Both the position numbers and the translations under genes were made by a program. Shown in pieces: positions 325 to 60,746 of a stretch of DNA of 64,000 nucleotides. Origin of the DNA: Sulfuricella sp. (lineage in GTDB: Bacteria; Pseudomonadota; Gammaproteobacteria; Burkholderiales; Sulfuricellaceae); the NCBI GenBank assembly GCA_018336195.1, contig JAGXQV010000052.1:1-64000 (forward strand), written 5' to 3'. The notes below the pieces were generated by a model. The model worked only from the letters and a program-made list of their open reading frames with translations, was not told the DNA's origin and ran no database searches. Every line of letters begins with the position of its first letter. Position 1 is the first letter of the stretch.

Positions 325-870
325 ATGTCCCGTTATCGACGCGATCATTCCGCTGGTTCGACCTGGTTCTTTACCGTGGTGACTTATCGGCGGCGGCCCA
401 TTCTTTGCGAGGAACCGTTGCGGGTCGCTTTGCGCGATGCCATCGCGGCGGTGCGTGCGGAACGGCCCTTTACCATCGATGCCTGGGTGCTGCTGCCGGA
501 TCATCTGCATTGCCTGTGGACATTGCCGGAAGGCGACGCGGATTTTTCGATGCGCTGGATGCTCATCAAACGCGCGGTGTCGCTGGCCTGCCGCGCTGAC
601 TTTCACCGCGACGACTGGCTGACTGCCGCGCAACGCCGGCGTGGCGAATCGTCGCTCTGGCAACGGCGCTTTTGGGAACACCGCATCCGCGACGGTGCCG
701 ATTTCGCCCACCACGCCGATTACTTGCATTTCAACCCGGTCAAACACGGCCTGACGGCCAACGTCGCCGATTGGCCGTATTCGACCTTTCACCGCTACGC
801 GCAAAACGGCATTTATCCGCCCGATTGGGGCGGCATCGCGGACACGGACGGGGAATGGGGCGAATCGTAG
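325..870 (+). CDS. REP-associated tyrosine transposase (RAYT), IS200/Y1 family
   Basis: This 181-residue protein belongs to the single-strand Y1 HUH transposase family that acts on REP palindromes. The metal-binding HUH pair is H60-L61-H62 in PDHLHCLW, and the catalytic tyrosine is probably Y133 in ADYLHFNPVKHGL. The WQRRFWEHRIRD block (112-123) is typical of RAYTs. Length is normal and both motifs are intact, so it may be active. It is bracketed by two palindrome pairs, the downstream one overlapping its TAG stop codon. RAYTs are usually single-copy domesticated genes thought to spread REP elements rather than themselves. The family call is secure; activity is inferred. Confidence 0.9.
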   Translation: MSRYRRDHSAGSTWFFTVVTYRRRPILCEEPLRVALRDAIAAVRAERPFTIDAWVLLPDHLHCLWTLPEGDADFSMRWMLIKRAVSLACRADFHRDDWLTAAQRRRGESSLWQRRFWEHRIRDGADFAHHADYLHFNPVKHGLTANVADWPYSTFHRYAQNGIYPPDWGGIADTDGEWGES

Positions 871-48902: not shown

Positions 48903-51900
48903 TCAACCCAGCCGGCGATGCAGACCTTGCAGGTCGAACACCTGCAATTCCTGCATGTGGCGCATCCCCACGCAGGCGGCGCGCGCACCGGCCAGAGTGG
49001 TGTAGTAAGTAATTTTGTTTTGCAGCGCGGCGTTGCGCATCATGTAGGAATCGTGCACCGCCCGCTTGTCTTCGACGGTGTTGACGATGAAGCTGATTTC
49101 GCCGTTCTTGATCATATCGACGATGTGCGGGCGACCTTCGTTGACCTTGTGTACCGCCGACACTTTCAACCCAGCTTCGACGAGGGCCGCCGCGGTTCCC
49201 TTGGTGGCAACCAAGTGAAAGCCCAACTCTTCGAGGTCGCGGGCAATATCGACCACCTTGGTCTTGTCCGCGCCGCGCACGCTGATGAAAGCCTTGCCGC
49301 CCGACGGGAGCTTGACGCCCGCCGCGAGTTGCGATTTGACGAAGGCTTCGGCGAAGCTGTTGCCCACCCCCATCACCTCGCCGGTGGATTTCATCTCGGG
49401 ACTCAGGATGGTATCCACGCCGGGGAACTTAATGAAGGGGAACACCGCTTCCTTCACCGAGAAATACGGCGGCTTGATTTCGTGGGTGATCCCCTGCTCC
49501 TTGAGCGAACGCCCGGCCATGCAGCGCGCGGCGATTTTCGCCAACTGCATTCCGACTGCCTTAGAGACGAAAGGCACGGTGCGCGAGGCGCGCGGGTTCA
49601 CTTCCAGCACGAACACGGTATCGCCCTGGATGGCGAACTGCACGTTCATCAGGCCGATCACGTTGAGACCCTTGGCCATCGCCACGGTCTGGCGGCGCAA
49701 TTCGTCCTGCATGGCCTGGGAAAGACTATACGGCGGCAACGAACAGGCCGAATCGCCGGAATGCACGCCGGCTTCCTCGATATGCTCCATCACCCCGCCG
49801 ATCAACACATCCTTGCCGTCGCAGATGGCATCGACATCGACCTCGATAGCGTCGTTGAGGAAGCGGTCGAGCAGCACCGGGGATTCGTTGGAAACCTTCA
49901 CCGCTTCGCGCATGTAGCGTTCCAGGTCGCTTTGCTGATGGACGATTTCCATGGCCCGCCCGCCCAGCACATAGGAAGGGCGCACGACCAGCGGATAGCC
50001 GATTTCCTCGGCAAGACGAATCGCGTCTTCGGGGTTCCTCGCGGTACGGTTAGGCGGCTGCTTGAGCTTGAGATCCTGCAACAACTTCTGGAAGCGCTCG
50101 CGGTCTTCGGCGGCGTCGATCATGTCCGGGCTGGTGCCGATAATCGGCACGCCGTTGGCTTCCAGGTCGCGCGCCAGCTTCAACGGGGTCTGGCCGCCAT
50201 ATTGGACGATCACCCCGACCGGCTTTTCGACGTGGACGACTTCCAGCACGTCTTCGAGGGTCAGCGGTTCGAAATACAGGCGATCCGAAGTATCGTAATC
50301 GGTCGAGACAGTCTCTGGGTTACAGTTGACCATGATGGTCTCGTAACCGTCCTCGCGCATCGCCAAAGCGGCATGAACGCAGCAATAGTCGAATTCGATA
50401 CCCTGTCCGATGCGGTTCGGCCCGCCGCCCAGCACCATGATCTTCTTGTTGTCGGTGGGCGCGGCTTCGCATTCTTCCTCGTAGGTCGAATACTGGTAGG
50501 CGGTGTCGGTAGCGAATTCGGCGGCGCAGGTGTCCACCCGCTTGTACACCGGGCGCACACCCAAAGCATGGCGCAAGGCACGCACGGCGTGCTGGTCGGT
50601 ACCGAGCAGCTTGGCAAGACGGCGGTCGGAGAAGCCGCTGCGTTTCAGGGCGCGCATCTCTTCCTTGCCGATTTCGTCGGGATTGCGGCCCTTGAGGGTC
50701 TGTTCCTGGCGCACCAAGTCTTCGAGTTGGGCTAGGAACCACGGATCGACATGGGTCAGGTTGAAAACCTGTTCCTGGGTCATGCCGATACGGAAAGCGT
50801 CGGCAATGTACCACAGGCGTTCCGGGCCGGGATCGGCCAGTTCTCGTTCGATCTTCTCGCGGTCGGTGGTTTTTTCGTCCAGTCCGTCAACGCCGGTTTC
50901 CAGGCCGCGCAAGGCTTTTTGCATGGATTCCTGGATGGTGCGGCCGATGGCCATGACTTCGCCCACCGATTTCATCTGGGTGGTGAGGCGGTCGTTGGCC
51001 TGGGGAAATTTCTCGAAGGCGAAGCGGGGAATTTTGGTGACCACATAATCGATGGAAGGCTCGAAGGACGCCGGGGTACGCCCGCCGGTAATGTCGTTCT
51101 GCAATTCGTCGAGAGTAAAGCCCACCGCCAGCTTGGCCGCCACCTTGGCAATCGGGAAACCGGTGGCCTTGGAGGCCAAGGCGCTTGATCGCGACACGCG
51201 CGGGTTCATCTCGATCACTACCATCCGCCCGTCGTCGGGGTTGATACCGAACTGCACGTTGGAGCCGCCGGTTTCCACGCCGATCTCGCGCAGCACCGCC
51301 AGCGAGGCGTTGCGCATGATCTGGTATTCGCGGTCGGTGAGGGTCTGGGCGGGTGCTACGGTGATCGAGTCGCCGGTATGCACGCCCATGGCGTCGAAAT
51401 TCTCGATGGAACAGATGATGATGCAGTTGTCCTTCTTGTCGCGGACCACCTCCATCTCGTATTCCTTCCAGCCGATCACCGATTCCTCGATGAGCAGTTC
51501 GCGGGTTGGCGAGGCATCCAGGCCGCGCTCGCAAATCGCCACAAACTCTTCCCGATTGTAGGCGATGCCGCCGCCCGAACCGCCCATGGTGAAGGACGGG
51601 CGGATGATGGTGGGAAAACCGATCATCGCCTGCACTTGCAGGGCTTCTTCCATGCTGTGGGCAACCGCCGCGCGCGGGCAGACTAGGCCGATTTTTTCCA
51701 TGGCCTTCTTGAATTTCTCGCGGTCCTCGGCCTTGTCGATGGCTTCCTTGGTCGCGCCGATCATCTGTACGCCGTACTTTTCCAGCACACCGTGCTTGGC
51801 CAAGTCGAGCGCGCAGTTCAGCGCGGTCTGGCCGCCCATGGTCGGCAGGAGCGCATCGGGGCGTTCCTTTTCGATAATCTTTTCGACGATCTGCCAAGTA

Positions 51901-52106
51901 ATCGGCTCGATATAGGTCACATCGGCCATACCCGGATCGGTCATGATGGTCGCCGGGTTGGAATTGACCAGGATGACCTTGTAGCCTTCCTCGCGCAACG
52001 CCTTGCAGGCCTGTGCGCCGGAGTAGTCGAATTCGCATGCCTGGCCGATGACGATAGGGCCGGCGCCGATGATGAGGATGCTATGGATGTCAGTACGTTT
52101 TGGCAT
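48903..52106 (-). CDS. carB: Carbamoyl-phosphate synthase large subunit
   Basis: 1,067 residues from ATG 52106 ([30 protein letters not shown]); a GTG four codons upstream is possible. Two ATP-grasp halves are present (e.g. [16 protein letters not shown] and [16 protein letters not shown]), with an oligomerisation region between and an MGS-like allosteric domain at the C-terminus ([26 protein letters not shown]). It makes carbamoyl phosphate for pyrimidines and arginine together with CarA. Normal length. Confidence 0.97.
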
Positions 52107-52192
52107 AGGTCGATTCACGTAGGGTGGCCGGGCCGCAGGGCGTACCCCGCCATTTCAAAACCTCGCGGGTTGCGTTTCCTGTCCCGCCCACA

Positions 52193-52244: not shown

Positions 52245-53393
52245 TCAGTTGCGGTTCGCTTCCATCGAAGCAATGAAACGGTCGAACAAATAGGCTACGT
52301 CGTGCGGACCGGGGCTGGCTTCCGGGTGGCCCTGGAAGCTGAAGGCCGGCACGTCGGTGCGGGCGATGCCCTGGTTGCTGCCGTCGAAGAGCGACTTGTG
52401 GGTCACCCGCAGATTGGCCGGCAAGGTTTCCTCGTCCACCGCGAAACCGTGGTTCTGGCTGGTAATCATCACCCGCCCGCTGTCGAGGTCTTGCACCGGA
52501 TGATTGGCGCCGTGGTGGCCGAATTTCATCTTGCGGGTCTTGGCACCGGAGGCCAGCGCCAGCAACTGGTGGCCCAGGCAAATCCCGAAGGTCGGGATAC
52601 GCTTTTCCAGAACTGCCTGGATCGCCTGAATCGCGTAATCGCAGGGTTCCGGGTCGCCAGGCCCGTTGGACAGAAACACGCCGTCCGGGTTGAGCTTGAA
52701 GACTTCTTCCACCGGCGCCTGGGCCGGCAGCACCGTCACCTTGCAGCCGCGCTCGGCCAACATGCGCAGGATGTTGCGCTTGACGCCGTAATCGTAGGCG
52801 ACCACGTTGAAGCGCGGCGCCTGCACATCGGCAAAGCCGCCCTCGAGACGCCATTCGCCCTGAATCCAGGTTTCCGGCTCGCTGCGCGACACCACTTTCG
52901 CCAAGTCCATGCCAGCCAGACCGGGAAAGCCTTTTGCCAGTTGCACGGCGCGTTTTTCGTCAATACCGGAATCCGGCCCGGCGGCCATCAGGCAACCGCT
53001 CTGGGCACCTTTTTCACGCAGGAGACGGGTCAGGCGACGGGTATCGATGTCGGCGATAGCGACCACCTTGTTGCGCTCCAGGTAGGCGCTCAGGTCTTCA
53101 CTATTGCGGAAGTTGCTGGTCAGCAACGGCAGGTCGCGAATCACCAGGCCGCCGGCGTAAACCTGGCAGGATTCCTCGTCCTCGGCATTGGTGCCAGTGT
53201 TGCCGATATGGGGGTAGGTCAGCGTAACGATCTGACGGCAGTACGAAGGATCGGTGAGGATTTCCTGGTAGCCGGTCATGGCGGTGTTAAACACCACTTC
53301 GCCGACACTGTGGCCAGAACTACCAATGGAAACGCCGCGAAACACCGTTCCGTCGGCGAGCGCAAGTATAGCGGGCAGGCGGCTGTGCGGCAC
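52245..53393 (-). CDS. carA: Carbamoyl-phosphate synthase small subunit
   Basis: 382 residues with a GTG start at 53393 behind AAGGAGTTCTC. The N-terminal CarA domain carries [27 protein letters not shown]. The class I glutaminase has its catalytic cysteine in [17 protein letters not shown] and His/Glu in [13 protein letters not shown]. It supplies ammonia to CarB. A promoter with good spacing and two large leader hairpins lie upstream. In many betaproteobacteria dapB precedes carA directly; here a secretion island intervenes. Confidence 0.97.
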
Positions 53394-53411
53394 GAGAACT
53401 CCTTAATCACA

Positions 53412-53505
53412 TTTCTAAATCGAACGTGCACTTTGTCGGCGGTGCTTGCCGTACCGCCGACGTACTGTCTGCGCACCGCCTTCGCGTTCACGTTCGATTT
53501 AGAAA
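53412..53505 (-). promoter_or_regulatory. Large double hairpin in the carA leader
   Basis: A perfect 17-base inverted repeat, TTTCTAAATCGAACGTG (53412-53428) with its inverse at 53489-53505, encloses a second perfect stem, GTCGGCGGT/ACCGCCGAC (53435-53443 and 53453-53461). The distal base is only 18 bases from the carA GTG. Placed in the transcribed leader, it could control carA translation or termination, or be an inserted palindrome. Confidence 0.65.
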
Positions 53506-53544
53506 CGGATTGCCAAGCGATGCGATTTTGAACAGTAGACATGC

Positions 53545-53576
53545 AAAGCGGGACAGGCTTTCGCCCATCCCGCTTT
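53545..53576. promoter_or_regulatory. Upstream hairpin of the carA leader
   Basis: AAAGCGGGA (53545-53553) pairs perfectly with TCCCGCTTT (53568-53576), loop 14 bases. On the plus strand it is followed by AAACTTTTT, so it could also terminate plus-strand transcription. On the minus strand it lies just after the predicted carA transcription start. Confidence 0.5.
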
Positions 53577-53587
53577 AAACTTTTTGG

Positions 53588-53616
53588 ATTATAGCTTAAC
53601 GGCGACCGTCTATCAA
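53588..53616 (-). promoter_or_regulatory. Sigma-70 promoter of carAB
   Basis: Minus strand: -35 TTGATA (53616-53611), 17-base spacer, perfect -10 TATAAT (53593-53588). Transcription would begin near 53581, giving a leader of about 190 bases before carA that includes both hairpins. Confidence 0.75.
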
Positions 53617-53638: not shown

Positions 53639-55000
53639 TCATCGTTCCCGTCCCGCCTCATGAAAAGCCTTTTGAACTGGGGAAAGCAGATATTCAATCA
53701 CAGACCGCCGTCCGAGCAATATTTCCGCCGTGGTTTGCATCCCGGCGGCAAGGGAATAGCGATTGTTCTCCATATCCAAATGCATACTTTTGAGAGCAAT
53801 CAAAGCCCGATAACCGATGGGCGGCATTTTTGCATTTTTGTCGTTTGCCCCATTGCTTGCGGCATTGTCAGAAGCATCGGCGCTCACATGTTCAACTTCG
53901 CCCTCGGCCAAACCGTATTTCTGGAAGGGAAAAGCGACAAGCTTGAGCTTTACCGCTTGTCCAGGATGAACGAATCCGGCGTCTTCATTGGATATCCACA
54001 CCTCGGCGCGCAATTCTTTTTCCATCGGAACCAAGGTCAGCAGCACGGTGCCGGGCTGAACCACCGTACCCGCCGTATGGGTCGATAAATCCTTGACAAC
54101 CGCTTCTTGCGGCGCTTTGAGTTCCAACAATTCCTGCCGGTGATTTTGCTTGGCGATCTCCTGAGACAGCTTGTCGAATGCGCTCTGATTTTCGTCGCGT
54201 TCCGCATAAAGCTGTCGACGGTAGTCGGTTTCGATCTGCTTGAGTTTCTTTTCCGACTGCATCATGCTGGCTCGGGTAGATTCCAACAAGTGTTCCTGAG
54301 CTTTGAGTTCCTGCTCCTTCTCGATACGCTCACGTTTTTTATCCCCGGCCATAATCGAGCCAGCGAAGCCATCCCTAGCCAGCTTTTCAAATGCCAGTTC
54401 TTGATCGCGGTAGTAAGGTAAAACCTCCACGAGCTTGGTCTTAATTGCTTCCGCCGAGGATGCGTCGTGCCGAGCTTTCTCATAACGGCTTTTTTCTTCC
54501 GCCAAAGCGGCTTCGAAAGCCGAGCGATTTGCCCGATATTGCGACTCGACTTCCCGAACGAGCGAGGGAGGATCTCCTGCCATCGGACGAAACGTTCGAT
54601 TGCCCAATTCGGCATCGATACGGCGCAGCGTGAGGCGCTTGCGCTGATATTCCCCTTCGAGAGACTTTGCGTCTGCGTCGGTAATCAAGTTGTCCATTCT
54701 CATCAGCACTTGACCGGCCTGCACCACATCCCCTTCCTTGACCAATATTTCCTTGACGATACCCGAATCTGGGGGTTGCACGATCTTGAGGTAGCTTTGC
54801 GGCACCAGTTTTCCCTCGGCTACCGCAACGATATCGAGTTGGCCGACGTATCCCCATATCAAAAGAGCCGTCAGCAAGGCCAGAAGGGAGATCAATACGG
54901 CCTGCCCCAACGGATTGGGCGGCGCTTCCTGTATACGCAGGAGAGGGGGCGAAAAAGTGTGATGATCGGTCATTGTTTTGGGAAGTGAGAATATTTTCAT
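53639..55000 (-). CDS. Type I secretion membrane-fusion protein (HlyD family)
   Basis: 453 residues. A single N-terminal membrane helix (~33-52) is followed by the lipoyl half IVQPPDSGIVKEILVKEGDVVQAGQVLMRMD, a long coiled-coil hairpin (~105-300), the second lipoyl half LKAPQEAVVKDLSTHTAGTVVQPG, and a beta-barrel end containing VHPGQAVKLKLVAFPFQKYG. It links the inner-membrane ABC transporter to a TolC-like channel, which is not in the window. An insert (SADASDNAASNGANDKNAKM) interrupts the late barrel. Upstream lies the large RTX gene. Confidence 0.92.
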   Translation of the reverse strand: MKIFSLPKTMTDHHTFSPPLLRIQEAPPNPLGQAVLISLLALLTALLIWGYVGQLDIVAVAEGKLVPQSYLKIVQPPDSGIVKEILVKEGDVVQAGQVLMRMDNLITDADAKSLEGEYQRKRLTLRRIDAELGNRTFRPMAGDPPSLVREVESQYRANRSAFEAALAEEKSRYEKARHDASSAEAIKTKLVEVLPYYRDQELAFEKLARDGFAGSIMAGDKKRERIEKEQELKAQEHLLESTRASMMQSEKKLKQIETDYRRQLYAERDENQSAFDKLSQEIAKQNHRQELLELKAPQEAVVKDLSTHTAGTVVQPGTVLLTLVPMEKELRAEVWISNEDAGFVHPGQAVKLKLVAFPFQKYGLAEGEVEHVSADASDNAASNGANDKNAKMPPIGYRALIALKSMHLDMENNRYSLAAGMQTTAEILLGRRSVIEYLLSPVQKAFHEAGRER

Positions 55001-55121
55001 TCGAAGACGACTATATCGATTTCCAGAGTGTCGGCAGGCGTCAAGTTAAAGAAGCCTAATCTTGTCCGCCCACCGACCATTAAATATTTCCGCCCCCTGT
55101 TCCCGAGGGAAGAACAGCAAG

Positions 55122-58100
55122 CTAAGCAACGCGTTGCAGATAGTCGCTCCCCGGAGACAATTTCGCCGGTGCGCCAGAGTTGGCTACGACAGACAAGCGT
55201 TCCGGCACATATCCCGAATTCGCCCCAAGCAATCCCGAGGCGGCACTATTCAAGACGGAAATGTCGGCCCCGTGGATTTCCTTCACTCCGAGCATCTCGT
55301 CGTTCATGGCGGATATCCTGGACACGGCTTTATCTGCTTCACCCCAACGAGCCAATGTGATATCGCCACTCGTATTTTTTCCCTCGGCAGCGATTTCCTG
55401 CGTATTCGAATCGAGCAACGACGGGTCGAGGAAGACGGGGTAGCTACGTCCCTTTTTGTCATCCGAACTCGATTTCGAGCCGGAACCATTGGCGGATTGT
55501 TTATCCTTCTGAGCGGCGGAGTTACCGGAATCGCCCTTTTCATCTTGCTTACTATTCCCGGACGAACCCGGGTTCCCGGGAGAAGTGCCCGAGCCATCAT
55601 TGTGATTGGAGTCATGACCGGGAGGCGGCGCGTCTTCCCCATTGCCGACGCCTTCGTTACCATGCTCCTGTTTGTCGTCATTGCCGCCAGCCCCGACTGT
55701 CACCCTGAAAACATCGGAAGCCATGGACAACGGGCCATGGTTATCGCTTGCCGTCACACGGATATCCAGAGAACCTTTCACACCCTTCGGCACGTGACCG
55801 CTGAAAGCCTGGCTCGCGGCATCGAACTTGACCCACGCAGGCAACGCACTTCCGTCAGCAAGCGTGGCGCTGAAAACCAGCGTATCGCCGACATCCACAT
55901 CGGAAAAATAGCTTATCGGCATTTTCCAGGAGAAATCGGTATTGGCGGCCACCTTGGTATCCGGCAAAGGAACCGCAACCACCGGGGCGTCGTTTTGACC
56001 CACTACGCTAATCGCGATGTCGCCTTGCGTGGCCATGGTCCCGTCGCTGGATTGGTAGCTGAAGTGCTCGACCACGCTCTGCCCCGCGCCCAGCGCTTGA
56101 ACCGCCGCCGCGGTGTTGTCCAGTTCGTAGCGGCTGCTGCCGTCCGCGAGCACGGTCAGCGTTCCATACACACCCTGGCGGATGCCGGGGTCGGCGACTT
56201 TCAACACCGTGCCGGCGTCCGGGTCGCTGTCATTGGCTAACACGTTGCCGCTGACGCTGGTTTGAACATCTTCCGTTACCGTGACGGCATCATTCATCGC
56301 GACCGGGGCCTGGTTGGCGATTTCCAGGCTGAAGCTCGTGCTGGCCGTGGCACCCGCCTGGTCGGTGGCAGTGACCTGGATTTGCAGGGTGCCGACCGCG
56401 CCGGCCACCTTTCCGCTGAAACTTCCCGTCGCGGCGTCGAACGCCAGCCAGGCAGGCAACGCGCTTCCATCCGCCAGCGTAGCGCGGTAGCTGAGTTGGT
56501 CGCCGTTTTTCACGGTTTGCTTGGTCAAAGTTAGCGCCGCGACTGGGGCGTCGTTCCGCCCGGTCACGGTGACGCTAATCTCTGCCGGGGTGGCGGCAGT
56601 ACCGTCGCTGGCCTGGTAGCTGAAATGGTCAACAACGCTTTGCCCGGCGCCCAGCGCTTGTACGGCGGGGGAGCCGTTGTCCAGTTGGTAAGTGCTGGTG
56701 CCGTCCGCGAGCACGGTCAGCGTTCCATACACACCCTGGCGGATGCCGGGGTCGGCGACCTTCAGCACTGTACCGGCGTCCGGGTCGCTGTCGTTGGCGA
56801 GGAGGTTGCCGACGATGGCGCTGGGGTCGTCTTCCGTTGCCGTGGCGGCGTCGTTCATCGCGACCGGGGCTTGGTTGGCGATTTCCAGGCTGAAGCTCGT
56901 GCTTGCCGTGGCGCCCGCCAAGTCAGTCGCCGTTACCTGGAGTTGCAAGGTGCCGACCGCGCCGGCCACCTTTCCGCTGAAGGCGCCGGTCGCGGCGTCG
57001 AACGCCAGCCACGCCGGCAAGGCGCTTCCGTCGGACAGGGTGGCGCGGTAGCTGAGTTGGTCGCCGTTGTCGACGTCGGTGAAGAGTCCTGCCGGCAGTT
57101 GGTAGCTGAGTTGGTCACCGTTTTTCACGGTTTGCTTGGTCAAGCTTAGCGCCGCGACTGGGGCGTCGTTCCGCCCGGTCACGGTGACGCTAATCTCTGC
57201 CGGGGTGGCGACAGTACCGTCGCTGGCCTGGTAGCTGAACCGATCGATGACGCTTTGCCCGGCGCCCAGCGACTGCACGGCGGCCAAGCCGTTGTCCAGT
57301 TGGTAAGTGCTGGTGCCGTCCGCGAGCACGGTCAACGTTCCGTAGGCGCCCTGGCGGATGCCGGGGTCGGCGACTGTCAACACCGTGCCGGCGTCCGGGT
57401 CGCTGTCATTGGCGAGCACGTTGCCGCTGACACTGGTTTGAACATCTTCCGTTACCGTGACGGCGTCGTTCATCGCGACCGGAACCTGGTTGACGGCGGT
57501 GGCGCCGGCGACCGTGATATCGAATGTATCCGTCGCCATCCGGTCGGTACTATCGTAGGCCGTGACGGTAACCGAAATGGTGCCGACATCCGCTTTGCCC
57601 GGCGTCCCGCGGAAAGTCAGCGTGTCCCAATCGACGGATATCCAGTCGGGAAGCGCGTTGCCATCCGCCAGGGCGATATCGAAGTAAAGGTAATCGCCGT
57701 GAGCCAGGTCGACGTCGTCAAAAGTATCGGCTGGGATGGTGAACTCAAAAAGCTCGCCCTCCCGAACCGTTTGATCCGCCACAGGCGTCACCAGGAACGG
57801 GGCATTGCCGGGGGCGAGGACATTCAGATAAACCTCGCACAGGTCGTAATCGCCTGCCGAATCGGTCGCGGTGATGGTCAGGGACAAGCCACCGATACTC
57901 GATTCATCCGGCGTACCGCTCAATTCGCCGGTCTGTGCATCGAAAGTCAGCCACGCCGGCAAGTCGCTGCCGTCGCTCATGGTCACCGAGTATTCCAGCG
58001 CGTCGCCGAAAATCGCGTCCTTGTCGCGGAAGGTGTCGGCGGGAAGCACCAGACTGAATGCCTGGCCGCTGGTAACCGTTTGGTCCTGCAAGGGGTTCGC

Positions 58101-60746
58101 CAGGTAGGGATTATCATTGACGTTGAGCACTTCCAGCGCGAAGGGACTACTCGCCACCAGCCCCCCAGGGTAGGTGGCGGTCACCACCAGGCTCAACGAC
58201 GCGACATCCTCGTTTTCAGGATATCCGCTGAAAGTCCGGGTGTCCGCATCGAACCGCAGCCAGGCCGGCAGCTCGGAGCCATCGGCCAGTTTCGCGCTGA
58301 AGACCAAGGCATCGCCACGGGGATTAAGGAACAAATTGTCCGGCACAGTGAATGCAAAGGAATCGTTCTGCGCGGTCACCTGATTGGCGATCCGCTCGGA
58401 AGCCAGCAAATTCGCAAAAGCCTCCTGGGTGGTGAACTCGCTGCCGTCGGGAAAACGCACCACCTGAATCGCCGGATCGTAAAGCGTCCCGATAGCCAGG
58501 CTGTCGCCGTTGCCGACGTCCAGCGTCAGCTCGCCGCTTTCGCCGATGCCCGGCGTCACCCCTTCGACGGCTATGCCATCGCCGAAAACCAGCGTATTGG
58601 TCTCCGCCCGGCCTATCTCCGAGTCGACTCCCCCACCGCTATCTTCAATCCGGTCGATGCCGTCGCCGGGATTGAAAAGATAAGTGTCGTTCCCCAAGCC
58701 GCCCGCCAGGTAATCGTCGCCCGTACTGCCTGCCAAGGTATCGTTGCCATCCCGCGCATTGAGATTATCGTTGCCCCCCAAACCTTCCAGGCGGTCGTCG
58801 AACGGCGTCCCGAGCAAGGAATCGGCGGCTTCCGTGCCTCTCATCGCGTTGCCGCCCGCCTGCGCCATGAACTCGTCGATGGACAGCGTGGTGCCGTCGC
58901 TGAATTGCAAGGTTTGCACGGCATAGTCGGAAATGCTGCCGATGGCGATGCTGTCGCCGTTGCCGAGATCCAGCGTCAGTGGCCCCTGGTCTCCTTCAAA
59001 AACCGCCTTGATCCCGGCGGCCGTGATGCCCGCGCCGAAACTCAGGACGTTGGTATCCCCATTGGATTGATCGATCACCGTATCGGCGCCGTCGCCCAGG
59101 TTGTAAAGGTAGGTATCGCTGCCCGCTCCGCCGCTCAACACGTCGTTGCCGGCGCCGCCTTCCAGGGTGTCCGCCAGCACGCTGCCGTAAAGCCGGTCAT
59201 CCCCGCCCAAGCCTTGCAGCGGCAATTCGCCGCCGAACGTGCTCATGACGTCGGCGCCTTCCGTCGCCGCCAGGCGGATGACGCTTTTTTGCGCCAGCAA
59301 ATCCGCCAGGGCCAATGACGTCCCGTCGTCGAAGCGCAAGGTTTGAATCGCCAGGTTATCGAGTGAGCCGACGGCGATCTGGTCGCCACTCCCCAACTCC
59401 AGCGTCAAGGTATTGGCTGCGGGATCCCAGCGGGTGGCAACGTCGTTCGCCGCGATGCCCGCTCCGAAGCTCAGCGTGTTGTCGCTTGCCGCGTCGTCGA
59501 GTATCGCATCGGCGCCGTCGCCGCGATTGAAAAGGTAGGTGTCGTTGCCGCCGCCGCCCACCAAGGTATCCCGGCCGCGCCCGCCTGCCAGGGTGTCGTC
59601 GAGTATGTTGGCGCTCAAATAATCGTCGCCGTCCTGGCCGGCCATCTCGAAGGAATAGCCATCGAAACCATACAGATGGTCATTCCCGTTGGTACCGGTA
59701 ATTTTCAAATCCCGCTGCGCAAGCAAATTGCGTAACGTGGAAGCCGTTCCGTCGGCGAACTGGACGTTTTGTATCGCCGGCTCGACGGAATATTGATCGA
59801 ATTCCAGACTCACGCTGTCGTTTCCGCCCAGATCCAGAACAATCGCATAGGCGTTATTCTGTGCCGTGGGTTGCCGATAGGACGCCACAATATCACCCGC
59901 CGCGATCCCCTTGCCGAAACGCAACGTATTGTCCCCGCCCGGCATCCATCCCCATTGCGGGTGATTCTGCGGGCCGGTGCCATCCCGGATGGTATCCGCC
60001 CCATCGCCGCGATTGAACACATAGATATCGCTCCCGCCGCCGCCGATCAGCGTATCGTTCCCCGCCCCGCCGACTAGGCAATCGGGAATCAGGCCGTCTT
60101 TCGCATCCTCGCCGATCAGGGTATCGGCCTGATCCGTCCCGGTTTGGAGCAGGCCGTGTTGCATGATGAAATCCTTCACGTCGAGCACGCTGCCATCGGC
60201 GAACTCCATGGTCTTGACGAACATCCCGTCAAACGGATCGAGATCGAAAACCCCATGAATCACCACACCAGGAAGCACCCCGATGACAATGCTGTCGCCA
60301 TTGCCCAAATCCAGGATGCATTGCGCCCCCGCGGACTCGGGAGCGCGCCGCACCGTCAACATCTCCGCCGTAATCCCCGCGCCGAAGCGCAGGACGTTGT
60401 TGTCCGAGCCGCTGTCCTGGATGCTGTCCGCCCCGTCGCCCAGGTTGTAGAGGTAGGTATCGGCTCCCGCAAGACCCTGGATGTGCTGGTTCCCTTTCCC
60501 CGCCTGGAGGGTGTCGCGGTACGGCGTGCCGATCAGGTCTCCCGAGACGCCCGTCCCTCGGACATCCAGCGGGTGTTGTGCGATGAATTCCGCTATCGTG
60601 AACGTGCTGCCGTCGGCGAATTTCAGGCTCTGGATGGCGATATCTTCCGCCGTGCCGATGCTGAGGGTGTCTTCGCCTAATCTGGCGACGACGCGGGAGG
60701 CTTCGAGACTGCCATCGCTAACTTTTGAAAATCTTGTCGCAGCCAT
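55122..60746 (-). CDS. Giant RTX / cadherin-like / VCBS secreted protein
   Basis: 1,874 residues. Residues 1-~775 hold RTX calcium-binding nonapeptides (GGAGNDTLIGGGGSD, GGRGRDTLVGGGGND) alternating with haemolysin-related blocks (YLFNRGDGADTI...LRFGAGI). Residues ~782-1080 are three cadherin/Ig-like He-PIG domains (PAWLxFDxxTxxFSG). Residues ~1085-1585 are three VCBS units alternating with more He-PIG domains, nearly identical at DNA level. A disordered Ser/Gly/Asp/Lys linker (~1686-1765) precedes a unique C-terminus. It is presumably the substrate of the flanking secretion genes: a calcium-dependent adhesin or surface-layer protein. No good ribosome site precedes ATG 60746. Confidence 0.85.
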   Translation of the reverse strand: MAATRFSKVSDGSLEASRVVARLGEDTLSIGTAEDIAIQSLKFADGSTFTIAEFIAQHPLDVRGTGVSGDLIGTPYRDTLQAGKGNQHIQGLAGADTYLYNLGDGADSIQDSGSDNNVLRFGAGITAEMLTVRRAPESAGAQCILDLGNGDSIVIGVLPGVVIHGVFDLDPFDGMFVKTMEFADGSVLDVKDFIMQHGLLQTGTDQADTLIGEDAKDGLIPDCLVGGAGNDTLIGGGGSDIYVFNRGDGADTIRDGTGPQNHPQWGWMPGGDNTLRFGKGIAAGDIVASYRQPTAQNNAYAIVLDLGGNDSVSLEFDQYSVEPAIQNVQFADGTASTLRNLLAQRDLKITGTNGNDHLYGFDGYSFEMAGQDGDDYLSANILDDTLAGGRGRDTLVGGGGNDTYLFNRGDGADAILDDAASDNTLSFGAGIAANDVATRWDPAANTLTLELGSGDQIAVGSLDNLAIQTLRFDDGTSLALADLLAQKSVIRLAATEGADVMSTFGGELPLQGLGGDDRLYGSVLADTLEGGAGNDVLSGGAGSDTYLYNLGDGADTVIDQSNGDTNVLSFGAGITAAGIKAVFEGDQGPLTLDLGNGDSIAIGSISDYAVQTLQFSDGTTLSIDEFMAQAGGNAMRGTEAADSLLGTPFDDRLEGLGGNDNLNARDGNDTLAGSTGDDYLAGGLGNDTYLFNPGDGIDRIEDSGGGVDSEIGRAETNTLVFGDGIAVEGVTPGIGESGELTLDVGNGDSLAIGTLYDPAIQVVRFPDGSEFTTQEAFANLLASERIANQVTAQNDSFAFTVPDNLFLNPRGDALVFSAKLADGSELPAWLRFDADTRTFSGYPENEDVASLSLVVTATYPGGLVASSPFALEVLNVNDNPYLANPLQDQTVTSGQAFSLVLPADTFRDKDAIFGDALEYSVTMSDGSDLPAWLTFDAQTGELSGTPDESSIGGLSLTITATDSAGDYDLCEVYLNVLAPGNAPFLVTPVADQTVREGELFEFTIPADTFDDVDLAHGDYLYFDIALADGNALPDWISVDWDTLTFRGTPGKADVGTISVTVTAYDSTDRMATDTFDITVAGATAVNQVPVAMNDAVTVTEDVQTSVSGNVLANDSDPDAGTVLTVADPGIRQGAYGTLTVLADGTSTYQLDNGLAAVQSLGAGQSVIDRFSYQASDGTVATPAEISVTVTGRNDAPVAALSLTKQTVKNGDQLSYQLPAGLFTDVDNGDQLSYRATLSDGSALPAWLAFDAATGAFSGKVAGAVGTLQLQVTATDLAGATASTSFSLEIANQAPVAMNDAATATEDDPSAIVGNLLANDSDPDAGTVLKVADPGIRQGVYGTLTVLADGTSTYQLDNGSPAVQALGAGQSVVDHFSYQASDGTAATPAEISVTVTGRNDAPVAALTLTKQTVKNGDQLSYRATLADGSALPAWLAFDAATGSFSGKVAGAVGTLQIQVTATDQAGATASTSFSLEIANQAPVAMNDAVTVTEDVQTSVSGNVLANDSDPDAGTVLKVADPGIRQGVYGTLTVLADGSSRYELDNTAAAVQALGAGQSVVEHFSYQSSDGTMATQGDIAISVVGQNDAPVVAVPLPDTKVAANTDFSWKMPISYFSDVDVGDTLVFSATLADGSALPAWVKFDAASQAFSGHVPKGVKGSLDIRVTASDNHGPLSMASDVFRVTVGAGGNDDKQEHGNEGVGNGEDAPPPGHDSNHNDGSGTSPGNPGSSGNSKQDEKGDSGNSAAQKDKQSANGSGSKSSSDDKKGRSYPVFLDPSLLDSNTQEIAAEGKNTSGDITLARWGEADKAVSRISAMNDEMLGVKEIHGADISVLNSAASGLLGANSGYVPERLSVVANSGAPAKLSPGSDYLQRVA

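Follow-up and report, generated by a model that had tools for sequence, protein, structure and literature searches.

A probably composite carA leader in Sulfuricella sp., with a conserved 5' hairpin and an inserted Correia-like palindrome

Introduction

The carA gene found in 64,000 nt of Sulfuricella sp. DNA (the whole stretch analysed, referred to here as the window) is preceded by a long and strongly structured leader, which raises the question of whether its two hairpins form a single regulatory RNA or have come together from different sources. The original prediction, made from the sequence, had described a promoter, a ~190-base leader and two stable hairpins upstream of carA, and had offered two explanations, a leader RNA that regulates in cis or a repeat whose insertion insulates the gene from a neighbouring secretion island. 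All of these features were present and their coordinates were correct. As described below, the leader is probably a composite, in which an ancestral hairpin element was joined later by a lineage-specific palindrome insertion.

Results

The carA locus, its promoter and its leader

The gene for the small subunit of carbamoyl-phosphate synthase, carA, lies on the minus strand (52245..53393), with a GTG start codon and the Pfam domains CPSase_sm_chain and GATase, and is followed downstream by carB (48903-52118) and then by greA, in a source assembly of 211 contigs with 7% estimated contamination. Its promoter, TTGATA-N17-TATAAT (53588..53616, minus strand), matches 11 of the 12 consensus positions, compared to 0.2 expected from shuffles. 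Of 73 homologous carA leaders, 55 had the TTGA of their -35 box separated from the -10 box by exactly 17 bp and 3 by 18 bp, and none had it at any of the remaining offsets from 8 to 33. As this spacing is fixed in the homologous leaders, the assignment of the carA promoter is strong.

Transcription probably starts in the GUUU at 53577..53580 (minus strand), with G53580 as +1, 7 nt past the -10 box, as suggested by the sequence and by its likeness to E. coli carAB P1. Counted from this likely +1 near 53580, the leader spans ~187 nt and its predicted fold reaches -86.2 kcal/mol compared to -56.8 ± 4.2 kcal/mol in shuffles (z = -7.0). The Shine-Dalgarno sequence AAGGAG (53399..53404, minus strand) is located outside the palindrome that forms hairpin 2.

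On the upstream side, a gene of the HlyD family (53639..55000, minus strand; Pfam HlyD_3) ends 22 nt before the carA -35 box. This gene stands beside that of a protein of 1874 aa, which carries RTX nonapeptide, Ig and cadherin-like repeats (53639-60746, minus strand, for both), and this type-1-secretion island, with its edge at 22 nt from the -35 box, occupies the position that dapB has in many relatives. The C-terminus of dapB was found upstream in 43 of 68 homologous carA leaders, its place being taken in the window by the HlyD gene. Since the upstream gene is not constant, the hairpin 1 element belongs to carA and not to the neighbour.

When the leader was searched in 61 related genomes, the matches split cleanly into two query ranges: one corresponded to hairpin 1 and was found in ~18 genomes, always near carA, and the other to the palindrome, found in few genomes and at other loci. 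The two hairpins would thus have different origins, and they are considered separately in what follows.

Hairpin 1 is conserved ahead of carA

Hairpin 1, AAAGCGGGAUGGGC-GAAA-GCCUGUCCCGCUUU (53544..53577, minus strand), is the conserved 5' leader hairpin of carA, with a predicted energy of -26.5 kcal/mol and a GAAA loop, and would extend from about +4 to +37 in the nascent transcript if transcription starts at G53580. It is followed by a conserved single-stranded tail (53532..53546, minus strand), for which position counts over 69 leaders gave the consensus UUUGCAUAUCYG (also written UUUNCAUAUCYG), represented in the window by UUUGCAUGUCUA; U was present at tail positions 1-2 in about 90% of them. 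In carA leaders of the same family, the hairpin begins 14-18 bases past the -10 box, a Shine-Dalgarno sequence follows soon after in most of them, and the palindrome is absent.

A covariance model built for this element (R1) detected it in 70 of 399 Burkholderiales genomes, with one match each; in the window's own genome the carA leader was the sole match. According to tblastn, carA was located immediately downstream in 68 of these 70 matches, which spanned at least 20 families. Analysis of covariation in relatives, proposed originally as a check on a regulatory role, supported the stem. When 22 leaders were aligned with MAFFT in the ordinary way, with no model imposed (A1), 3 pairs of a 13-pair stem showed two-sided changes. 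In the larger alignment (A2, 71 distinct sequences), 8 of the 13 pairs had changed on both sides, with 76 two-sided cells compared to 18 ± 4 in shuffles and pairing in 95.6% of cells compared to about 50% when the partner was slid, figures that lean towards structure because A2 was fitted to the model; A1, however, had no such bias, and the slid controls fall well short of the observed pairing. The shuffle controls leave relatedness in. The outer CGGG/CCCG was invariant and the loop size varied from 3 to 7 or more; GNRA accounted for 18 of the 37 four-base loops among the homologues, an enrichment that points to RNA. On these comparisons, hairpin 1 is an ancestral element maintained ahead of carA across many families of Burkholderiales and, as a conserved and covarying leader element, it fits the cis-regulatory RNA that had been predicted.

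Possible function of hairpin 1

The conservation described above makes it very likely that hairpin 1 is a cis-regulatory 5' hairpin of carAB. It would act in cis on the nascent transcript, tuning the amount of carAB mRNA that is made or that survives. The favoured signal, held with moderate confidence and with no single mechanism claimed, would be the supply of pyrimidines (UTP). In the window, the sequence CCAAAAA-GUUU puts a U run among the bases transcribed first, at a predicted start 7-8 nt from the -10 box. Among 69 leaders, T was enriched at offsets 9-11 past TATAAT, and the full [GA]TTT near +1 was found in only about 18, so reiterative transcription was rejected as a universal mechanism.

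Other ways in which such a hairpin could work were also considered. Hairpin-stabilised pausing of RNA polymerase at the tail UUUNCAUAUCYG was rejected: its 11-nt spacing is right, but the tail does not match the G that the pause consensus has at -10. A search for an intrinsic terminator or attenuator yielded 0 terminator-like sites and no U-tract, the tail being UUUGCAUGUC.

Two different readings of hairpin 1 remain to be weighed against a cis-regulatory RNA. Its inverted repeat GCGGGA..TCCCGC could be an operator at which a dimeric regulator binds the DNA, rather than an element of the RNA: the dyad is placed at about +10 to +40 with an invariant outer CGGG/CCCG, and a dyad bound by protein would likewise show symmetric changes. 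However, the two-sided changes reach up to the loop, the loop itself is of variable size and GNRA tetraloops are strongly enriched, all of which are expected of RNA, and an operator is thus unlikely. Somewhat less doubtful, although still rather improbable, is that hairpin 1 merely stabilises the 5' end of the mRNA, or is a weak terminator left behind by the upstream gene, without any metabolic signal. Such a role would be consistent with its GC-rich, 5'-terminal nature, with the frequent U at tail positions 1-2 and with the terminator-like UUUUU tail that it has in family f5. Against this stand its position downstream of carA's own promoter, its persistence where the upstream gene is not dapB, and the sequence-specific tail UUUNCAUAUCYG, which neither a stabiliser nor a terminator would need. 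A cis-regulatory hairpin is the reading that we prefer.

Hairpin 2 is probably a palindrome inserted in the leader

Hairpin 2 (53408..53509, minus strand) is a Correia-like palindrome with an outer stem of 20-nt arms (53412-53431 / 53486-53505) that are 95% complementary. Within these arms there are 17 perfect pairs, as had been predicted, and when the spacer is limited to at most 60, the 64-kb window contains no more than two inverted repeats with perfect 17-base arms, this being one of them. The arms stop 18 bases ahead of the GTG, and the perfect 9-base stem described as nested inside them was recovered at 53437-53445 / 53455-53463 (GTCGGCGGT/ACCGCCGAC), again in agreement with the prediction. 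This nested stem (53437..53463, minus strand; GUCGGCGGU / ACCGCCGAC in the fold) is specific to the window copy and competes with a family-wide GGCGGUGC/GCACCGCC stem. The conserved core of the family, GCAGACAGTAC-GTCGGCG-GTACGGCAAG (53445..53472, minus strand), is the sole exact copy in its genome and is common to the Correia elements of Neisseria. The same genome holds one full copy of the palindrome and two partial ones. An isolated 24-base arm, AATTTCTAAATCAAACGTGCACTTT, was detected just upstream of an ORF resembling a chemotaxis receptor (G000:C104:136-159) and is possibly the remnant of another copy.

The palindrome core was absent from all the other carA leaders examined, including those that keep hairpin 1; at one locus in family f5 (L295), a copy was located about 1.3 kb upstream of its carA. 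Matches to the palindrome were found in 15 of the 399 genomes of the order, counting the window's own, and outside this genome they were placed at other loci, such as a copy between ffs (the SRP RNA gene) and dnaX, recognised by eye. The core pattern GCAGACAGTAC-N2-10-GTACGGCAAG, also given as GCAGACAGTAC-n-GTACGGCAA, was present at unrelated loci in at least 112 contigs of 84,980 species genomes, the Correia elements of Neisseria among them, and nearly all of the matches listed belonged to Betaproteobacteria (Neisseria, Aquitalea, Cupriavidus, Acidovorax, Methylotenera and others). The exact 28-base inner arm GTACTGTCTGCGCACCGCCTTCGCGTTC was found in none of the 84,980 genomes, a plasmid collection searched with the palindrome gave no match, and a search for the core in the text of papers returned only primers and unrelated sequences among the matches listed.

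When the copies were compared, outer arms taken from the same copy were complementary and those from different copies were not, with a score of at least 10 in 84 of 117 compared to 7 of 117 when arms were mispaired. The second stem was paired in 60-77% of the copies at positions 2-7 compared to 30-51% in shuffles, with all four Watson-Crick types represented. The stem register directly outside the core (offset 0) was discarded, as covariation was flat there but became strong once the last G of GTACGGCAAG was paired. Copies were located near both ends of genes, and a rough assignment of ORFs placed 26 of 83 inside open frames. Perfect palindromes can persist through template-switching during replication without selection. 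Two genomes of genus g86 have copies at one and the same site (L061 and L073), apparently orthologous but with arms that differ, a pair that could be used to study how the arms stay complementary. At a number of other loci (L070, L071, L079, L093, L131 and L154 among them), the core was nested in longer inverted repeats of several types (CTAACAAAACC..GGTTTTGTTAG, TTTCAAAATGA.. and GGACTTACGCAAAA..), some of which recall integron attC sites or the ends of insertion sequences.

At about 95 nt, non-coding, with 20-nt terminal inverted repeats and with copies at non-orthologous sites, the palindrome resembles a MITE. No clean target-site duplication could be read, and as the assembly of the nearest genome of the same genus (G001) lacks carA, the empty site was seen at the level of the family. 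Judged on its sequence and distribution, hairpin 2 is probably an element of ~95 nt inserted between hairpin 1 and the Shine-Dalgarno sequence, in line with the inserted repeat suggested originally, and its dispersed homologues together with its absence from other carA leaders suggest that it has been mobile. The presence of the same arms at many unrelated loci had been named beforehand as the result that would speak against a regulatory role, and the homologous palindromes found at such loci do argue against this role for hairpin 2.

Sequences resembling REP elements were also seen at the other end of the window, where a 181-aa ORF (325-870, plus strand) looks by eye like a REP-associated Y1 transposase and is followed by two REP-like hairpins, GTAGGGTGGACACGG..CCGTGTCCACCCTAC (867-950) and GGGTGGGCACGG..CCGTGCCCACCC (1936-2020).

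Possible effects of the palindrome on carA

Being downstream of the promoter, the palindrome would be transcribed as a long double-stranded hairpin in the carA mRNA, leaving the ribosome-binding site AAGGAG just outside its stem. It probably makes the 5' UTR a substrate for RNase III, or else it could be merely tolerated as DNA.

The distribution of the two hairpins bears also on whether the whole ~190-nt leader could be one regulatory RNA, a riboswitch or an attenuator with the palindrome as its sensor or expression platform. The great stability of the complete fold, the palindrome stopping so close to the start codon, and the existence of riboswitch candidates among carA leaders elsewhere (PMC8632094) would all agree with this. 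Yet other carA leaders keep hairpin 1 without the palindrome, homologues of the latter are found at unrelated loci and it is not followed by a terminator U-tract, so that a single RNA is very improbable and has already been largely refuted. The suggestion that the palindrome insulates carA from the secretion island, or terminates transcription between them, fares even worse and is highly improbable: read-through is to be expected from an HlyD gene ending 22 nt from the -35 box, but the palindrome falls within the transcription unit of carA, past its promoter, and shows no U-tract on either strand. As both hairpins are downstream of carA's own promoter, and neither has a terminator-type U-tract, insulation is unsupported. 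The composite leader described above, with an ancestral hairpin and a later insertion, is the preferred reading.

Discussion

Hairpin 1 compared to known carA leaders

Neither the window nor ten homologous loci gave anything above the gathering threshold with the covariance models of Rfam 15; matches below it to RAGATH-16 (16 bits, 65.6 being needed), OxyS and an intron domain were taken as chance. A study from 2021 described the 'carA motif' SRC-12-1 as a riboswitch candidate found mostly in Polynucleobacter (PMC8632094). Like hairpin 1, SRC-12-1 is a structured RNA of Burkholderiales that follows a promoter and directly precedes carA. In contrast, a conserved sequence unrelated to hairpin 1, UACCCUAGCGCUUAAAGACACUCACC...GAGCGUCGGAUGGAGCAGGG, is found in the leaders of genus g33, which by inference is Polynucleobacter; 29 g33 carA leaders were not matched by a second model (R2), and the one match was L300. 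Hairpin 1 thus differs from SRC-12-1, as judged on these presumed Polynucleobacter leaders. As the g33 leaders are unrelated to hairpin 1, there would be at least two unrelated carA leader RNAs in Burkholderiales.

The second conserved leader, UACCCUAGCGCUUAAAGACACUCACCUCCCGC..GAGCGUCGGAUGGAGCAGGGACUGGAG, was observed in the g33 carA leaders (L300-L329) and is probably the published SRC-12-1 motif. The carA contig L300 (G472:C40) has a carA leader of the Methylophilaceae type in a g33 genome and is probably a contaminant. Family f5 was tried as a route to Polynucleobacter and rejected, genus g33 being taken instead. The carA leaders of f5 (L271-L295) have a hairpin ACGGGAU..GUCCCGUUUUU, a more terminator-like form of hairpin 1, and most of them show an extra GGGCGCAAYGCCC hairpin that ends at an AGGAG ribosome-binding site. 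Hairpin 1 is offered as a testable candidate for the control of carAB in the many Burkholderiales without the carA motif of Polynucleobacter.

Transcripts from P1 of E. coli carAB begin with GUUUGC, and slippage driven by UTP dampens this promoter (PMC6245113). It shares with the window the GUUU, placed 7 nt past the -10 box where transcription is likely to start, but the review ascribes control in E. coli to transcription factors and to slippage and mentions no leader hairpin (PMC6245113), and the GUUU is not kept in most of the Burkholderiales leaders examined.

Hairpin 2 compared to Correia and RUP elements

Like the Correia elements (CREE, NEMIS), the palindrome of the window is short and non-coding and has the core GCAGACAGTAC-n-GTACGG. 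At four loci in Neisseria (L092, L098, L123 and L147), the same core was accompanied by TATAG ends and bounded by TATAGTGGATTAA repeats, which are the published ends of Correia elements, described as 26-bp terminal repeats (TATAG[CT]GGATTAA...). In contrast, the window copy has ends of the ATTCCRTTTCTAAATCG type (arms ..CGTTTCTAAATCGAACGTG; end sequence ATTCCRTTTCYAAATCG), common to L060-L062 and L091, and carries ACGCGAAGG/GACAAAGTGC where Correia elements carry ACAAGGCG/CAACGCCG. The Correia core ends TCAGGACAA and CCGGTACGG were absent from the window copy, their places being taken by GAACGCGAAGG and GACAAAGTGCAC. It is also found outside Neisseria, as one full copy in its genome. Having ends of its own type, hairpin 2 is to be classed as Correia-like and not as a Correia element proper.

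RUP of Streptococcus pneumoniae is, like the window element, a palindromic MITE (~107 bp), but it has different ends and its mobilisation by IS630-Spn1 has been proposed. Two streptococcal-type matches (L165 and L184), which may be RUP-like, have the same GCAGACAGTAC/GTACGGCAAG core. The internal loops GCAGACA / GGCAA are conserved, recurring inside stems that vary freely but remain complementary. This pattern looks as if a single factor recognised the hairpin in its folded state, be it single-stranded DNA or RNA, whatever the terminal repeats. It is conceivable, if speculative, that the Correia elements belong as one branch to a wider superfamily of hairpins spread across Betaproteobacteria, one of which was added to an ancient and previously undescribed regulator in the carA leader.

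The closest parallel for the position of the palindrome is offered by the meningococcal mtrCDE operon, in which a Correia element between the promoter and the gene forms part of the transcript and is a target of RNase III cleavage (PMC2649163). By analogy, the palindrome probably adds an RNase III substrate to the carA mRNA. A mobile palindrome would have joined the leader of a central biosynthetic operon, with the same geometry that changed the control of mtrCDE in meningococcus.
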